From positions 1 through 29,602 of the IMG/VR virus record IMGVR_UViG_3300045747_000047: DNA of 29,602 bases; one strand, written 5' to 3'. This document shows, one piece after another, positions 10,107 to 26,170 of the stretch (its first letter is position 1; each line of letters begins with the position of its first letter). The stretch is from a virus. Both the position numbers and the translations under genes were made by a program. Under the pieces are notes generated by a model. The model did no database searches. It had not been told where the DNA came from and was given only the letters and a program-made list of their open reading frames with translations.

Positions 10107-10913
10107 TCAGCCTTCAAGCGTAACGTTGTAATTGACAAGCTGCACGCCAGTGTCTGCCACAGTCAAACTATCAATCACAAAGGTGAAGAAGTTGTCTACA
10201 GCGGAGTTGTATGTAAGCTCAGTGGCAAACGCCGTGCCAATGTTTGAACCGTTGGCAAGGTTAAAAAATCCAGATTGCACCTTTGTGGCACTGAGTGCAG
10301 TAAATGAACCTATTGCGTTTACTGCAGATGCTGCAACCCATGCGCCAGCAATGTTGTTATCAAGAACCCTGGTGTCTGCAGTTGATTTTGCAGTGCCAAA
10401 TCCACCGCCAATCCTGGCAGTGCCTGCGCTTCCAGAAATTGTTCTATTCAACAAAGCTTCTACCGTAATCTTTGAACCCGCTACCATCATTCCTGCGGGA
10501 ACTTTGATGTCCGGCTGTGTGCTGATAACTTGAATCGCTCCACCAGAATTGAATGACGCCGCTGGAGTGGTTACGCTTCCCGGCACACCATAAAGCCTTA
10601 CTCGGCCATTAGCTGGCCTCCAACTAGTGCCATCGCTCCACCAGTAAGAACGACCACCAACACCGACATCAGTGACAACCATTTGCGTTCCGACAGATAC
10701 CGACGTTGCTGCTGGTCTGCCGGACCAGACACCTACATAGATGTAGCGCAGGTTCTGCTGCTCTACAGGCGTCAGCGGCTGGAAAGATGTTCCAGGGTTG
10801 ACAGTAAACGTAGCCCTTCCCTGAGCCACGAGCGCGGCCTCGGTAGCGTTGTCCAGCGTGACCGTTGCGCCGTTTGCAATCGCTGCATAAGGCTGAAGAA
10901 GGGTGACTGTCAT
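10107..10913 (-). CDS. Virion protein with N-terminal MTxTL module, function unknown
   Basis: The product has 268 residues. The first 55 residues are nearly a copy of those of the neighbouring tailspike at 10938-12848 (40 of 55 identical by eye) and distantly resemble the 132-residue protein at 13615-14013. After this module comes a segment with WSDGTSWRP (about 91-99), common in phage fibre-like proteins, and a beta-rich C-terminal domain (about 115-268) resembling tail appendage jelly-rolls. GGGG stands 6 nt before the ATG. A shared N-terminal anchor with different C-terminal ends suggests an appendage fixed to the same site on the virion, but this is inference. Confidence 0.68.
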   Translation of the reverse strand: MTVTLLQPYAAIANGATVTLDNATEAALVAQGRATFTVNPGTSFQPLTPVEQQNLRYIYVGVWSGRPAATSVSVGTQMVVTDVGVGGRSYWWSDGTSWRPANGRVRLYGVPGSVTTPAASFNSGGAIQVISTQPDIKVPAGMMVAGSKITVEALLNRTISGSAGTARIGGGFGTAKSTADTRVLDNNIAGAWVAASAVNAIGSFTALSATKVQSGFFNLANGSNIGTAFATELTYNSAVDNFFTFVIDSLTVADTGVQLVNYNVTLEG

Positions 10914-10937: not shown

Positions 10938-12848
10938 TTAAACCGTGATTCCGTTGGATCCAAGCACCTGCCAGAATCCTGATGTTCCGTCGTACTGCGC
11001 CCGCAGGCTCACAGCCTGCCCAAGAGCAAGCACAATGCTCGTCTTTGCTGCTTGCCGGTTAAAGGTCTGCCCCGTAAAACAGTTGATCGTGAGAGTCACG
11101 CCCACAGTAGTGCTGCAGTTGGCGACCTCCAGAGGCGATCCGGTGTAGGTGTTTGCGGTTCCGCCTACACCGAATCCGACTTGGTCAAGGGTCCAGACAG
11201 CATTAGCCGTGCCGGTAAACGCCAAGCACCCTTGATATGCACCGTAAAGCGCAAGCGTGGTCGCCGTGCTGACCTGTGTGCGCTGGCCGATTGGGACAAA
11301 CGGGTAGACGAACTGCTGACCGGGAGAATTGACGCCAGCCATGCCAACGACACTGCTACCGCTGCCAAGCGTCAATCCAAATGTGCCGGTAAGGTCTCTG
11401 AAAAACCCCTGCGGACCGCTGTTGACGTTTACACCAGTTGCTTTGCCGCTGTATCGGCTCAGAAAATTTGTTGCTGCCGTCCCGTCAAAGTCAGTTGTTA
11501 TACCTTCAATGCAGTGGAATGACCCCTGTGAATTGCGAACGCATAGAGACGATGCTTGCCCTACGTCCTGACCAGAGAAGATGAAGTTGATCTGCAGATC
11601 CGCACTTGCGTTCTGCACCTCAATCATGTTTGTCCCTATGCCCTCTGCGTCAATCCCGTAAAAACAACTAGATTGAATTTGGGAGGCATTGAAACCGCCA
11701 TACCCTACTATCTCAAGCGGCGCATATCCGTACCTGACTAGGTTGACAGCAGTGTTTCCCGTTGCTGTCTTTGCAATTCCCTGCATGAAGTCGGACAACT
11801 GAATCACGTTGCCGATTTGCGAGATAACAAAATACGTGATTCGCTGGCCGAATCCGTTGACCGTAGCGTCCACCGTCACCGGCATGTCAAGCGGGAACAG
11901 CGTGCCGTCAGGCACTGTGATGTTTGCAGAGCCGTTCGCCATCGTGGCCGCGACTGTGATTTTTACTCCGCCAGAGTTCGCCTGCGCACCAGTTACGACC
12001 AAATCATTGTAGGCGCACCCTTGAGCCGCGTTAAAGACAATGTTGCGCTGAAGAGGTCCGCCACCCTCGCACAAAATGTTGTCTATCCGGCTGTTTCCGC
12101 CGTTGTAGTACGTCGTGGAAGAACTACCGCCGAACCAGAAATTGCCCTGCGCCGAGGAGCCAATTGAACAGATGATGTCCCGAGCTTTGGACAGGTTGAA
12201 GTTGTCCAGATACATTCCCCAAGCTGCGGGAAGCTTGAAGTAAAGGTCCGAGAAATCTGCATAGAACAAACCGCAGATTGATCTAGTACCACGATACAAA
12301 CCGCCAGCACGGACGCCGTATCTGCCACCATCGACAGCAAGGCTTTTAACCCCTGTGCGAGTGACGGATCCAGCGTAAAGCCCGTTAAAAGTGGACGCAA
12401 TAACGTCTGCTTCCATCGCAAACGCATCGACCGTGGCAGATTGCTTGATGATGGTGCCGCCAGTCAGGATGCGCCCTGCCGTCATGTTGTACCCGGAACC
12501 TTGGTACACAACACCATTGCGAAGGGGGAGCGCAAGGCCTGAGGTGCTTATGTCATACATAACAGGTAGAAGCTGTACTGTGCCGCCACCATTTGCAGTT
12601 GCTGCGTTTACTGCATCAATAATGCCGCCGTATGTTGCCGTTTTTGGTGCAAACGTAGGACCTACTGAATATGCGCTTGACTTTAAAGCTTGCTGCTCAA
12701 CAGCGGTAAGTGGCTGAAAGGCAGATCCGCTGTTAAGCACGAACTTCGCCCGCCCCTGCGCCACAAGTGCGGTTTCCGTTGCATTGTCAAGCGCGACAGT
12801 GCTGCCATTCGTATATGTTGCGTATGGCTGAAGCAGCGTAATCGTCAT
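10938..12848 (-). CDS. Tailspike-like protein with pectate-lyase-type beta-helix
   Basis: The product has 636 residues. Residues 1-55 are the MTxTL module shared with the next protein downstream. From about residue 65 it reads as a parallel beta-helix: GIIDAVNAATANGGGTVQLL (about 74-93), NGVVYQGSGYNM, then repeated short strands separated by Gly/Asn turns up to about residue 500, and a compact C-terminal domain ending FWQVLGSNGITV. Beta-helix tail proteins often degrade or bind O-antigen or capsule. It begins immediately after the stop of the gp4-like gene (TGA then ATG, no gap). A beta-helix protein placed before gp10 is not the P22 order and suggests an acquired second receptor-binding gene. 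Confidence 0.75.
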   Translation of the reverse strand: MTITLLQPYATYTNGSTVALDNATETALVAQGRAKFVLNSGSAFQPLTAVEQQALKSSAYSVGPTFAPKTATYGGIIDAVNAATANGGGTVQLLPVMYDISTSGLALPLRNGVVYQGSGYNMTAGRILTGGTIIKQSATVDAFAMEADVIASTFNGLYAGSVTRTGVKSLAVDGGRYGVRAGGLYRGTRSICGLFYADFSDLYFKLPAAWGMYLDNFNLSKARDIICSIGSSAQGNFWFGGSSSTTYYNGGNSRIDNILCEGGGPLQRNIVFNAAQGCAYNDLVVTGAQANSGGVKITVAATMANGSANITVPDGTLFPLDMPVTVDATVNGFGQRITYFVISQIGNVIQLSDFMQGIAKTATGNTAVNLVRYGYAPLEIVGYGGFNASQIQSSCFYGIDAEGIGTNMIEVQNASADLQINFIFSGQDVGQASSLCVRNSQGSFHCIEGITTDFDGTAATNFLSRYSGKATGVNVNSGPQGFFRDLTGTFGLTLGSGSSVVGMAGVNSPGQQFVYPFVPIGQRTQVSTATTLALYGAYQGCLAFTGTANAVWTLDQVGFGVGGTANTYTGSPLEVANCSTTVGVTLTINCFTGQTFNRQAAKTSIVLALGQAVSLRAQYDGTSGFWQVLGSNGITV

Positions 12849-13614: not shown

Positions 13615-14013
13615 TTAGACAGTGGTCGGAGAAACAATGCTGTTGAAGACGATCCAATCAATCAGGGTCGTCGCGGTCGCGTTGGCCGTGCCGTAGATCG
13701 TGAACGATCCAGCAGCAGGCACAACACGCTCAACGCGCAGCAGCGTGGTATCCGCAGTGGCCTGCGCAACGTAGGCAACCACCTTTGAGCCCGCCGTCAC
13801 GAACGAGTTCGTGATGACGACCGAAGATGCGCCAGCAGCGATAGCCGCCTTGCCGGTCAGCGCGCCGACAGTCTGCGCGCCGGTGCTGGTTGCGGTGGCC
13901 AAAGCGGTGGCACCGTAGCCCTGAGCGATCAGAGCGGCTTCGGTGGAGTCCGGCAGGGTAACCGTAGTGCCAGCCGCAATGCTTCCGTAGGAGCGTGAGA
14001 GAGTAATGGTCAT
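13615..14013 (-). CDS. Small virion-like protein with MTxTL N-terminus
   Basis: The 132-residue product is rich in Ala, Thr, Val and Ser and looks like an all-beta structural protein. Residues 1-35 resemble the N-terminal module of the proteins at 10107-10913 and 10938-12848 (20 of 35 identical to the former). AGGA stands 8 nt before the ATG at 14013. It lies downstream of coat, separated from it by the plus-strand homing endonuclease, and upstream of the gp4-like gene; a head decoration or minor structural role is possible. No catalytic or metal-binding motif is seen. Confidence 0.65.
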   Translation of the reverse strand: MTITLSRSYGSIAAGTTVTLPDSTEAALIAQGYGATALATATSTGAQTVGALTGKAAIAAGASSVVITNSFVTAGSKVVAYVAQATADTTLLRVERVVPAAGSFTIYGTANATATTLIDWIVFNSIVSPTTV

Positions 14014-14057: not shown

Positions 14058-14122
14058 CGAAAAGGTGAATCATCCCCACCCTGACCAGCACCCCAGGGAT
14101 GCAAGCCATTGATGAGGCTTCA

Positions 14123-14608
14123 ATGAACGAACTGACAGCGGATCGTCTCCGCACCCTTCTGCACTACAACCCGGATACGGGCGTTTTTTCGCGCCGATTT
14201 AGCGTTGGCGGAAGCCTTGCTGGCTCTGTCGCTGGCAGCAGACAACCAGACGGCCGAATCCTGCTTAGCGTTGATGGCAAGAACATCAGAGCGCACCGCC
14301 TTGTATGGCTGTACGTTCATGGGTTCTGGCCTTTTGGCGACGTTGACCACATCAACGGCAACCCGTCTGACAACGGGCTTTGCAACCTGCGTGACGTGCC
14401 GCATGCGATCAACCTCCAAAACCGCATCCGCGCGCCTAACAACAACGGCTTGGGCTTGATAGGTGTCACGCCGAACCATCACAGGTTCATGGCCCAAATC
14501 AAGGTTGACGGCAAAAGGGTTTATATCGGTACCTTCGACACCCCGGAGGAGGCTCACGCCGCTTACCTTGAAGTTAAGCGCAAGCATCATCCAGGGTGCA
14601 CTATCTAG
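14123..14608 (+). CDS. HNH homing endonuclease with AP2 DNA-binding domain
   Basis: This 161-residue protein is the only supported gene on the plus strand. Residues 57-66 (AHRLVWLYVH) and 73-90 (DVDHINGNPSDNGLCNLR) form the HNH nuclease core, with His76 as the likely catalytic base and Asn88 in the second Asn position. Residues about 112-155 (GVTPNHHRFMAQIKVDGKRV, then YIGTFDTPEEAHAAYL) are an AP2-type DNA-binding domain, a classic pairing in phage free-standing homing endonucleases. The ATG at 14123 has GAGG 5 nt upstream; an earlier in-frame ATG at 14099 lacks this. It converges on coat with 3 nt between the stops. It probably cuts endonuclease-free relatives at this locus and spreads by repair. 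Confidence 0.9.
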   Translation: MNELTADRLRTLLHYNPDTGVFSRRFSVGGSLAGSVAGSRQPDGRILLSVDGKNIRAHRLVWLYVHGFWPFGDVDHINGNPSDNGLCNLRDVPHAINLQNRIRAPNNNGLGLIGVTPNHHRFMAQIKVDGKRVYIGTFDTPEEAHAAYLEVKRKHHPGCTI

Positions 14609-23895: not shown

Positions 23896-24128
23896 TCGGC
23901 ATCCTTTGTGAACGTGTACCGCTTTGGCCGTCTGATAGTCACTGTCTTGGCTTCATTGCCAGACCAGTCAGCGTCATAGTCCTTGCCGAACGAGTCAAAT
24001 TTCAGGCTGTTGAGGATCTTCAAGCTGTCAACCAACACAGCGGCAAATGCTGGTGGCATAGGCTCAGGCAGTCCACGCCACTTGCGCCACATCGGATATC
24101 GACAAAGTTTGTTGTCTAGCCAGTTCAT
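23892..24128 (-). CDS. Hypothetical protein, 78 aa
   Basis: The 78-residue product has no recognised domain. The N-terminus (NWLDNKLCRYPMWRKWRGLP) is basic and Trp-rich, the middle (AFAAVLVDSLKILNSL) is a hydrophobic helix that is too polar at its ends for a sure membrane segment, and the C-terminus is charged. It is held by two overlaps: ATGA with the nuclease gene before it and GTGA with the Q-like gene after it. That packing is the main evidence that it is real. Confidence 0.6.
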   Translation of the reverse strand: MNWLDNKLCRYPMWRKWRGLPEPMPPAFAAVLVDSLKILNSLKFDSFGKDYDADWSGNEAKTVTIRRPKRYTFTKDAE

Positions 24129-24424
24129 GCCGCCTCCATCACACGCAAGACCCGCATCGCGCCCTCGACATCAGTGACCGTGGCTACAGGGCCACCGCGC
24201 CAAGAGTCCAGGAAGTCTCGCTGTAGGGCTGTGTAGTCGGCTGCACGGGGGTTCTTCTTGCCTACCGTGCGCTTGACTTCTACCAGCGCTGTCTTCTTGG
24301 CAAACCCGACGCAGAGGTCAACGGGCAGGCCAATGATCCAGACGCTTGCGCCGGCTGCGCGTAAGGCTTCGACTATTTCCTTTTGATTTTCGTCTACACG
24401 GGCCGCAAAACGGTTAATGCTCAT
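24125..24424 (-). CDS. PD-(D/E)XK nuclease, VRR-NUC-like
   Basis: The 99-residue product starts at the ATG at 24424, with AAGGA 6 nt upstream. The pattern is that of small VRR-NUC or Holliday-resolvase-like phage nucleases: a helix with Glu15 (DENQKEIVEALRAAGASVW), Asp36 (LPVDLCVGF), the catalytic strand ALVEVKR with Glu49 and Lys51, and a final YTALQRDFLDSW followed by a strand and helix (ATVTDVEGAMRVL). Such enzymes cut branched or flap DNA in replication and recombination. It lies directly after the replication genes and the GGGAC array. Confidence 0.75.
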   Translation of the reverse strand: MSINRFAARVDENQKEIVEALRAAGASVWIIGLPVDLCVGFAKKTALVEVKRTVGKKNPRAADYTALQRDFLDSWRGGPVATVTDVEGAMRVLRVMEAA

Positions 24425-24603
24425 TTGCTTTCCTTGGCAAGCAACCCAGCAAACGGGACGGGACACACGGGACAAAGGGAACGGGACAGAAAACGGGACG
24501 GGACATGTCCCGTTTCCCTAAGGGCCATGTCCCATGTCCCATTGTCCCGTTTTGGTGTCCCATCTGTCCCGTTTTGGCTGATTTCAGACATTTTGTGTCC
24601 CAC
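24421..24603 (-). CDS. Possible 60-aa small ORF running through the GGGAC array
   Basis: This frame fits the gap exactly. Its GTG lies 2 nt after the helicase stop, GAGGAG stands about 9 nt upstream of the GTG, and its TGA overlaps the ATG of the nuclease gene as ATGA, the same packing as elsewhere in the operon. The product is odd: the repeats read as NGTDGTPKRDNGTWD, then mirrored Ser/Arg/Pro/Cys-rich SRSLCPVCPVPF. No family is recognised. The stretch may instead be non-coding DNA whose repeats happen to leave a frame open. An alternative start is the ATG five codons in. Confidence 0.4.
   Translation of the reverse strand: MGHKMSEISQNGTDGTPKRDNGTWDMALRETGHVPSRFLSRSLCPVCPVPFAGLLAKESK
24455..24601. 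repeat. Array of 13 GGGAC/GTCCC pentamers with a central 14-bp palindrome
   Basis: On the plus strand GGGAC starts at 24455, 24460, 24469, 24483, 24495 and 24500, and GTCCC starts at 24507, 24529, 24536, 24544, 24557, 24566 and 24597. The change of orientation is at CGGGACATGTCCCG (24499-24512), a perfect palindrome. Several copies share longer flanks (AAAACGGGAC or GTCCCGTTTT). Minus-strand RNA could fold AACGGGAC with GTCCCGTT (loop 7 nt) followed by TTTT. Position next to the replication helicase suggests an origin or a regulator binding array; this is inference. Confidence 0.82.
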
Positions 24604-24605
24604 TT

Positions 24606-25739
24606 TTAGATGCTCCTCAAAACCAAAATATGCTTGTCTGCGACCTCAATGAACCCTGATTTGATGGCCCAAGCGCGAGCGCGGAAGTACGCTTTGCGGC
24701 GCACTTCTGGGTCTGTGGACTCCATCGTTTCGTAAAAGACATGGCGAACCTCCTTCTCTAGAGCGCCGTTCTGGCAGCAGTTAAGGAACTCTGCATTCCT
24801 GCCGCTGCGACCAGAAGCGACCTCAAGCTGTCGGGCTTGGTCAAGCTCTGGGCCTTCTGCGACATATCGAGCGGCAAGGGATGTGATTTCGTCTCCGTCT
24901 TCGTCGTGGCCTAAAACATGCTTTCTGAGACCAAATGCAGCATCTGGAGGAAGCTCACCATCCTTCTGCTTAAACCATGTCAGGGTGGCGAGCATCTCTT
25001 TCTCATCGCGGAAGACGCCGATAAGAAAGTCTGTGTTGCCGAGCATCGTGCTCGATCCACGAGGACGCTCTGTGGCGCTGTGTCCGCTGTGGTGAACAAC
25101 TAAAACAAAGCACTTCCACAGCGCTCTAAAAGCGTTTCCGAGGCCCCTGAGGTATGCCGGTACGTCTGTGGCGCTGTTTTCGTCGCCGTCAAATGTCTGG
25201 CTGAGGGTGTCAACAAAAACGGCAGTCGGAACAACGCCAGCGGTCTTTGCGGCCTCAACAACCGTCTGGCAGTTCTGCGAAAGATTTACGGCTACAGGCA
25301 CAACGTGGAACTCAATGGCCCCCCAATGAAGGCCCCGCTCCATGTGCCAGGCTTTGATCCGACGCCACAGACCCGTCCCACCTTCGGCTGCGATGTAGAT
25401 GACGGGGCCTTTGGTGGTCTTGAATCCAAGCCAACGCATGCCGTGGGCGATGTGCAGGGCAAGATCAAGCGCGACAAATGACTTGAAGGTGCCAGATGCC
25501 CCGAACATCATCCCAACGCTGTCGGCGGGGATCAAAGTCTTGACGGACCATGACACGGCCTGGCTGGCCTGCTCGAGTTGTGCGAGACTTAGGAACGGCA
25601 GTTGATATGCCGCCGCCTTAGCTTCGTTTTCATTCTTGTGGATGCGGATGACCTTGCCGAGAATTTCATCGGCACCGCCCATTCTCTGCACTAAGGCATC
25701 AACAGCATCACCCAAGTCATCTGTAGGTATCGCCATCAC
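24606..25739 (-). CDS. RepA-like RecA-fold ATPase / replicative helicase
   Basis: The 377-residue product is a AAA_25/RepA-type hexameric helicase. Walker A is GASGTFKS (80-87), a strand with IYIAAEGG follows (115-121), Walker B is AVFVDTL (173-179), and the sensor region LVVHHSGH (213-220) and PRGSS (226-230) are typical of RSF1010 RepA-like proteins. The C-terminal 75 residues (RRKAYFRARAWAIKSGFIEV) look like a winged-helix DNA-binding tail. It should unwind the replication fork. GTG at 25739 overlaps the CHC2 gene stop (GTGA); the ATG directly after it at 25736 is equally possible. It follows a CHC2 zinc-finger gene, its likely partner. Confidence 0.83.
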   Translation of the reverse strand: MMAIPTDDLGDAVDALVQRMGGADEILGKVIRIHKNENEAKAAAYQLPFLSLAQLEQASQAVSWSVKTLIPADSVGMMFGASGTFKSFVALDLALHIAHGMRWLGFKTTKGPVIYIAAEGGTGLWRRIKAWHMERGLHWGAIEFHVVPVAVNLSQNCQTVVEAAKTAGVVPTAVFVDTLSQTFDGDENSATDVPAYLRGLGNAFRALWKCFVLVVHHSGHSATERPRGSSTMLGNTDFLIGVFRDEKEMLATLTWFKQKDGELPPDAAFGLRKHVLGHDEDGDEITSLAARYVAEGPELDQARQLEVASGRSGRNAEFLNCCQNGALEKEVRHVFYETMESTDPEVRRKAYFRARAWAIKSGFIEVADKHILVLRSI

Positions 25740-26170
25740 GATCTGGCCTCACTGGCTAAGTAGCTGATGCGCCCGAAGGCTTTGGACAGCCGCTCGCGGT
25801 CCTTCTCTTCAACAGGCGTGCCGTGGGATAGATTTGCCGCAACGATTGCCACAAATAGGGCCTCAGACTCAAGCATTTCGAGCGCTTGACCCTTGGATAG
25901 CAGGGACACCCGCTTAGGGGCTGCATGGCCCATTCCGTAGCCTTGGCGCGGTGGGAACAGCGCCTCCATGTCCAAGCCGATGCGGCTTAGTACGTCATGG
26001 ATGCCGCAACCGGCAAAGCATTTGATGAGCACGCGCCCATCGGATAGAGACTTGATCGACAAGCTAGGGCTGCGGTCTTCGTGTGCTGGACACTTCGCAG
26101 ACCACTGGTCCCCGCCTCGAGCGTGAACGCCGTCTAGCTTTGACAGGATGAGTTCGGTGTTGGCGTTCAT
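25736..26170 (-). CDS. CHC2 zinc-finger protein, primase-type, no catalytic domain
   Basis: The 144-residue product has a DnaG-like CHC2 zinc ribbon: Cys27-x2-His30 (KCPAHEDRSPSLSI) and Cys51-x3-Cys55 (LIKCFAGCGIHDVL), which in primases reads the template start site. The protein ends about 90 residues later in a helical region with no TOPRIM motif, so it has the DNA-reading part of a primase without its polymerase part. ATGA overlap with the previous gene sets the start, and its stop overlaps the RepA-like helicase start. In many phages such a protein is fused to or adjacent to the helicase. Confidence 0.83.
   Translation of the reverse strand: MNANTELILSKLDGVHARGGDQWSAKCPAHEDRSPSLSIKSLSDGRVLIKCFAGCGIHDVLSRIGLDMEALFPPRQGYGMGHAAPKRVSLLSKGQALEMLESEALFVAIVAANLSHGTPVEEKDRERLSKAFGRISYLASEARS

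Follow-up and report, generated by a model that had tools for sequence, protein, structure and literature searches.

A dense array of GGGAC repeats in a 29,602-nucleotide virus sequence (IMG/VR record IMGVR_UViG_3300045747_000047, 'the window') very likely represents an iteron-type replication origin that is bound by the C-terminal domain (CTD) of the helicase encoded next to it. We place the probability of this reading near 0.85. Arrays recur at the same position beside related helicase genes, their repeats are specific to each lineage, and the repeat letters covary with a residue in the recognition helix of the helicase. These comparative results are shown directly. Physical binding and origin firing are inferred.

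In the proposed mechanism, the array would act as an origin immediately past the 3' end of the gene that encodes its own initiator. This initiator would be a RepA-like hexameric helicase whose C-terminal winged helix reads GGGACA iterons, in either orientation, through its recognition helix. The helicase and the primase encoded by the upstream gene would be gathered on the array, nearby DNA would open, and the helicase would be loaded. In many relatives a CCCC-TWWA-GGGG hairpin may provide an exposed priming site. Both the melting site and the hairpin function are inferred. That replication starts at the array is likewise an inference, drawn from the nature of the proposed reader, the presence of a single cluster per genome, the occurrence of these systems on phage-plasmids and the precedents described below. 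The original prediction for this locus had left three roles open: an iteron origin, an operator array or a structured RNA. The first is now strongly favored, with origin firing still inferred.

Organization of the array

The array spans positions 24455-24601 and contains 13 GGGAC/GTCCC sites. Six GGGAC copies (starting at 24455, 24460, 24469, 24483, 24495 and 24500) are followed by seven GTCCC copies (24507, 24529, 24536, 24544, 24557, 24566 and 24597), such that all copies in one half converge on those in the other. A perfect palindrome, ACGGGACATGTCCCGT, lies at the orientation switch (24498-24513). The original prediction of six copies facing seven within 147 bp is confirmed at every position; the palindrome that it described as 14 bp long is real and extends to 16 bp. 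The repeat unit is approximately 8 bp rather than 5 bp, with the form ACGGGACA, and occurs in seven exact copies.

The pentamer is not enriched across the window as a whole (51 found versus 52 expected). No other 147-bp stretch of the window holds more than two, and order-3 Markov simulation of 200 windows never places more than four within 147 bp. Together with the comparative tests below, these values uphold the earlier claim that the density exceeds what codon use explains. No second repeat cluster is found in the window. GC skew follows a smooth slope across the window, without the inflection at 24.5 kb that had been suggested as a check, but this measure is uninformative on a linear contig of only 29.6 kb.

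All genes flanking the array are encoded on the minus strand, in the order CHC2 primase-like gene, helicase gene, array and a gene for a 99-amino acid protein. The array follows the helicase gene, as had been proposed. It begins about 5 bp past the stop codon and takes up most of the 181 bp that separate the helicase gene from the next gene. It is intergenic and does not lie inside the initiator gene.

The helicase and its neighbors

The gene at 24606-25739 (minus strand) encodes a 377-amino acid RepA-like hexameric helicase of the RecA/SF4 type, as judged by Pfam, profile matching and an AF2 model. Its only Pfam match is AAA_25 (PF13481, E = 1e-30). The best PDB profile match is RSF1010 RepA (1g8y, E = 2e-15), and comparison of the core fold agrees. 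No SF3 helicase domain is found by Pfam, profile or fold comparisons.

Residues 315-373 (24621-24797, minus strand) form a C-terminal winged-helix domain, which is the proposed iteron binder. The AF2 model of this domain has helices and two strands in winged-helix order, with a mean pLDDT of 90.5. Residues 344-360, PEVRRKAYFRARAWAIK (24660-24710, minus strand), are predicted to form a helix directly ahead of the wing, where the recognition helix is expected, and this helix contains the covarying residue K349. VIA-align gives Z scores of 8-9 to many kinds of winged helices, including ORC subunits, BlaI and MecI. Structures of P4 alpha, RepC and SaPI Rep are missing from the VIA-align list, which proves nothing, and Foldseek searches with the winged helix return only weak, generic matches.

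The upstream gene (25736-26170, minus strand) encodes a CHC2 zinc-ribbon primase-like protein, the primase half of a split primase-helicase. It matches PHROG 6088 (DNA primase, E = 3.7e-12), and its Pfam match to Zn_ribbon_DnaG (E = 7.5e-5) is slightly below the cut-off. The primase part is variable among relatives. It may be a Prim-Pol, Toprim or PriCT_2 domain, often fused to the helicase, or it may be encoded by a separate gene.

The 99-amino acid protein encoded past the array (24125-24424, minus strand) shows weak endonuclease similarity (PHROG 93, E = 8e-5) and has no Pfam match, so the original assignment of a nuclease gene to this position holds only weakly. As a constant partner of the array this gene is rejected. 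Since its homologs follow the helicase and array in only five other loci among the 242 fetched, it probably lies outside the system. The VRR-NUC gene located behind the array of Rhizobium phage RHph_X2_25 gives no alignment to the window's protein.

Two features elsewhere in the window were also observed. A lone plus-strand open reading frame (ORF; 14099-14608) resembling HNH endonucleases sits amid minus-strand structural genes, beside the presumed capsid gene. Three minus-strand ORFs in the tail region (10107-10913, 10938-12848 and 13615-14013) begin with a near-identical module (MT[IV]TL...LDNATEAALVAQG...), and may have arisen by duplication of an N-terminal domain.

Recurrence of arrays beside related helicases

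Arrays like that in the window were sought in two directions. In the forward test, IMG/VR was scanned with only the 14-bp core of the palindrome. Dense GGGAC arrays occur at a minimum of 57 loci, including the window. The window's helicase family adjoins the array in 33 of these loci (median distance, 7 bp) and is the one protein family found there. In 32 of the 33 cases the array starts no more than about 60 bp from the 3' end of the helicase gene or overlaps it; the overlaps are exceptions (L005, L034 and L039) in which ORFs read through the array. The helicases recovered in this way are conserved in their core and in a C-terminal motif, WRxxFY...EAKKKAFQRAxxxL. A single-protein search for close relatives found none. 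Pattern searches relied on two narrower alignments, because a 16-sequence alignment was too diverse.

In the first stage of the reverse test, cultured phages with related helicases were chosen regardless of their repeats. Most carry an array with an internal hairpin at the same place, built from a different repeat. Examples include CGTGACA in Rhizobium phages 16-3 and RHph_X2_25, GCGGAGAT in RHph_N65, CGGTACA in Idiomarinaceae phage 1N2-2, GTATAA in Roseobacter phage CRP-831 and GGGGACA in Salicola phage CGphi29. No array is seen in Caulobacter phage RW, Microcystis phage Mae-JY30 or two metagenomic phages.

In the second stage, helicases were gathered by helicase sequence alone from bacterial genomes and IMG/VR, yielding 193 non-redundant loci that derive mostly from Alphaproteobacteria and metagenomic phages. 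Arrays were called by a simple count: within a fixed 400-bp frame spanning the stop codon, some 6-mer had to be present in six or more copies. This threshold is met at the 3' ends of 127 helicase genes (66%). It is met by only 68 of 2542 other 400-bp windows and, within these loci, by 12 of the 614 3' ends of other genes. Absence of the array from relatives with the same replication genes was one of three conditions set for refuting the original prediction. Two thirds of independent relatives have one, and where the equivalent gap carries an array its position is kept while the repeat is often different.

The repeats of these loci are lineage-specific and include CGGGACA, CGTGACA, CGGACA, CGTTAC, CGTCACA, CGCAACA and GCGGAAGT, among others. 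GGGAC itself can therefore be rejected as the conserved signal: the letters vary by lineage while the position is constant. Because relatives often have a different repeat, a search limited to GGGAC would have missed most of these systems. The cognate repeat of each locus occurs 23 times per kb in the array versus 0.6 times per kb elsewhere in the same loci, which is a roughly 40-fold difference in density. In 120 of the 127 loci, no 200-bp stretch outside the array holds more than three cognate copies. The convergent arrangement seen in the window is not general, and the orientations of repeats in relatives are mixed (for example, >>><<>><< or >>>>>><><<).

The remaining 66 helicases lack an array by the 6-mer count, yet 43 of them still match the CTD profile. 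Some may have longer or more degenerate repeats or arrays located elsewhere, and others may use a different mode of loading. Each of these explanations is merely possible.

Covariation between repeats and the recognition helix

Mutual information was calculated between repeats of the form XXXXAC and aligned winged-helix domains from 73 usable systems, after close relatives sharing a repeat had been collapsed. Among the CTD columns, column 56 of the alignment, which corresponds to K349 in the window, ranks first in mutual information z score at each of the two middle positions of the repeat, and its signal is not reached in any of 20,000 shuffles. Column 56 is K or R in all systems with CGGGAC (23/23) or CCGGAC (13/13) repeats, Q in all six with CGTGAC, M or V in all three with CGTAAC, and T in three of four with CGTCAC.

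Phylogenetic contrasts were drawn, on supported branches only, from a helicase core tree that excluded the CTD. Nine contrasts are independent, of which on average 8.0 agree with the rule and 0.0 disagree (p ~0.008). No such trend appears in tree contrasts for the other CTD columns examined, which were not all columns.

The nearest relatives of the window also obey the rule, with GGG accompanied by K or R (L295-L297), GTG by Q (L299, L301 and L303) and GGC by M (L294). The last of these is the closest relative found. Its helicase core is 73% identical, and it has both the helicase and the downstream nuclease-like gene in common with the window (24125-25739). However, its iteron, AAACGGCACA, differs from that of the window, and M replaces K at the covarying position. 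This pair may capture a recent switch in specificity, although the event is inferred from sequence alone. Outside the covariation set, a Methylobacterium currus plasmid protein (NRATF) and the L235 protein (KRATW) both accompany CGCAACA repeats.

The covariation gives strong support to the conclusion that the array is read by the winged helix of the helicase, but there is no binding experiment and physical contact is inferred. Furthermore, covariation speaks for recognition and not for origin function. Identical covariation would be expected if the same binding served regulation or partition.

A hairpin within many arrays

A hairpin of the CC..T(N)(N)A..GG type, CCCC-(TTTA/TATA/TAAA)-GGGG, is present in 40 of the 127 arrays versus 21 of 2542 control windows (0.8%). 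Its loop is nearly always TTTA, TAAA or TATA. The strict form is missing from the window, which retains only a remnant, CCC-TTA-GGG (24516-24524, minus strand), at what is a long hairpin in many relatives. Central hairpins with a C-rich arm also occur in arrays that have very different iterons, such as L083, L024, L122 and L133. The loop appears more conserved than the repeats, and could conceivably be a priming signal.

Relationship to known replication systems

The RepA-like helicase is also found on five circular phage-plasmids (from Methylobacterium, Caenibius and Klebsiella), two of which encode ParA as well. In each, the densest cluster of short repeats is located directly 3' of the helicase gene and has its own repeat. 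The whole record was covered for pMRAD08 and 65-95% of the sequence for the other four.

The closest parallels in overall layout come from staphylococcal elements. Like the helicase in the window, the Rep protein of staphylococcal pathogenicity islands (SaPIs) has a C-terminal DNA-binding domain, and the iterons of the SaPI origin lie directly 3' of its gene (PMC7581432). SaPI Rep belongs to another helicase type. In SCCmec, the CTD of Cch2 on its own binds short direct repeats that lie immediately past the 3' end of the helicase gene, whereas nearby inverted repeats are dispensable for binding, and the origin is putative (PMC7581432). Cch2 is a 3'-to-5' helicase that has been likened to MCM-type helicases. 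The window's helicase differs in superfamily from both proteins, with AAA_25 as its only Pfam match and RSF1010 RepA as its best PDB profile match. Two further distinctions are that the iterons of RepA-like helicases vary between lineages with a one-residue code, unlike those of SaPIs, and that RepA-like systems have 6-17 iterons versus three in SCCmec and occur in different phyla.

RSF1010 has a single origin, oriV, that combines iterons with stem-loop priming sites and is served by the helicase RepA together with RepB' and RepC (PMC4234260). A RepA-family hexameric helicase is common to both systems, and RepA is the closest solved helicase to that of the window. However, RSF1010 uses a separate protein, RepC, to read its iterons and another, RepB', to prime at ssi hairpins. 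In the RepA-like phage systems the proposed iteron reader is part of the helicase polypeptide, which in many relatives includes the primase as well. This primase is of the Prim-Pol, Toprim or CHC2 type.

The alpha protein of phage P4 is similar in that a single initiator unites a primase and a helicase with a winged helix that recognizes short iterons (PMC4234260). P4 alpha has an SF3 helicase and acts with a second, distant repeat region (crr), whereas the window has neither an SF3 helicase domain nor a second repeat cluster. Proteins with Prim-pol, helicase and C-terminal winged-helix domains are also known from pRN1 (ORF904) and Bordetella phage BIP-1, where the origin is just 3' of the replication gene and includes a stem-loop (PMC4234260). 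These helicases are of the SF3 type, and the authors report only a stem-loop, with no iterons, at the origin. Lambda-type origins similarly tie an iteron array to an initiator gene. Their array resides inside gene O and their helicase is a separate DnaB, in contrast to the intergenic array of the window.

Alternative explanations

The strongest rival holds that the array is an operator and that no replication starts there. On this view, repeats bound by the helicase, or by some other regulator of the phage, would serve for autoregulation of the operon or for a switch in early transcription. The array does separate two genes of the same direction, a position from which a regulator could operate, and autoregulation by the helicase would also yield covariation with the CTD. 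However, a scan of 24300-24800 for promoters comes back empty. Outside the array, cognate repeats show no clustering, as the 120 loci with few outside copies attest, and arrays are found 3' of the helicase gene whatever gene comes next. Moreover, the proposed reader is a helicase, and the same layout is an origin or origin-like in SaPIs and SCCmec (PMC7581432). We consider an operator unlikely.

A second rival, a centromere-like partition site or pac-like packaging site of a phage or phage-plasmid, fares worse. It would fit the single cluster per genome and the presence of ParA in some circular relatives. But the repeat covaries with the helicase rather than with ParA or a terminase, most of the loci read have no ParA, and a packaging site has no reason to trail a helicase gene across diverse phages. 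This explanation is very improbable.

There is similarly little to recommend a structured RNA, or a transcription terminator or attenuator, formed by the inverted repeats. A single strand of the array folds at -54 kcal/mol as DNA (z = -8.2), but this stability is trivial because the repeats are opposed. One terminator-like site is found versus 0.9 expected, and the terminator and promoter scans reveal nothing above chance that would account for the array. The mixed orientations in relatives do not form one large palindrome. No Rfam family scores above threshold; the sole match, mir-641, is at chance level (23.8 versus a gathering score of 100). An RNA would also leave the covariation with a DNA-binding helix unexplained. 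Finally, although the pentamer has its expected frequency over the whole window, a non-functional repeat expansion or codon-driven coincidence is all but excluded by a density far beyond simulation and by comparative tests in which the same site recurs with lineage-specific letters and a matched protein residue.

Implications of a proposed origin-reading helicase

Origins are unknown for most phages. If the iteron-origin reading is correct, the origin of any phage with a RepA-like helicase could be read from its sequence, and a single helix of the helicase would allow a fair prediction of the letters of that origin. The dozens of naturally matched protein-DNA pairs would be useful for studying how origin specificity evolves. 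They raise the questions of why specificity diversifies, with competition between phages, satellites or resident phage-plasmids as candidate causes, and of how an SF4 helicase can be its own origin-binding initiator. The reading would also link RSF1010-type helicases to the layout of SaPI and SCCmec.

A bolder interpretation, toward which the evidence leans by a modest margin, is that these loci represent a large and hitherto undescribed family of replicons in phages and phage-plasmids. Their RepA-like helicase, with its own origin-reading winged helix, would switch origin specificity by a one-residue code. Residues K/R, Q, T and M/V would match the middle iteron letters GG, TG, TC and TA, respectively. 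Many members share the CCCC-TWWA-GGGG hairpin, for which a priming function is no more than a possibility. If this is true, related phages would fail to recognize each other's origins, in a manner reminiscent of plasmid incompatibility groups. A search of the open-access literature turned up no account of iteron arrays beside RepA-like helicases of phages, which is not proof of novelty.

GGGAC arrays without the helicase

Some GGGAC arrays occur without a RepA-like helicase. Five are inside genes that resemble phage replication-initiation proteins, O-like and others (L003 4112-4468, L063 181-341, L070 728-815, L079 870-1022 and L090 399-518), with O-like genes in L003, L079 and L090. Two of the five are directly followed by dnaB, which is the arrangement of the lambda origin. 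Unrelated initiators may thus have converged on the same repeat.

Other clusters are of a different character. Ten very GC-rich loci (L012, L022, L032, L036, L047, L050, L052, L055, L068 and L120) have 17-36 copies of GGGACA in each cluster, and the total for a locus reaches about 100. The copies are distributed across genes whose function is unknown, and none of the ten loci has the RepA-like helicase. These clusters may have a different role. In L074 (6124-6365), five copies of a tandem 22-bp unit, GGGACATGTCCCGGGACAAATC, are located in an ORF without family matches.
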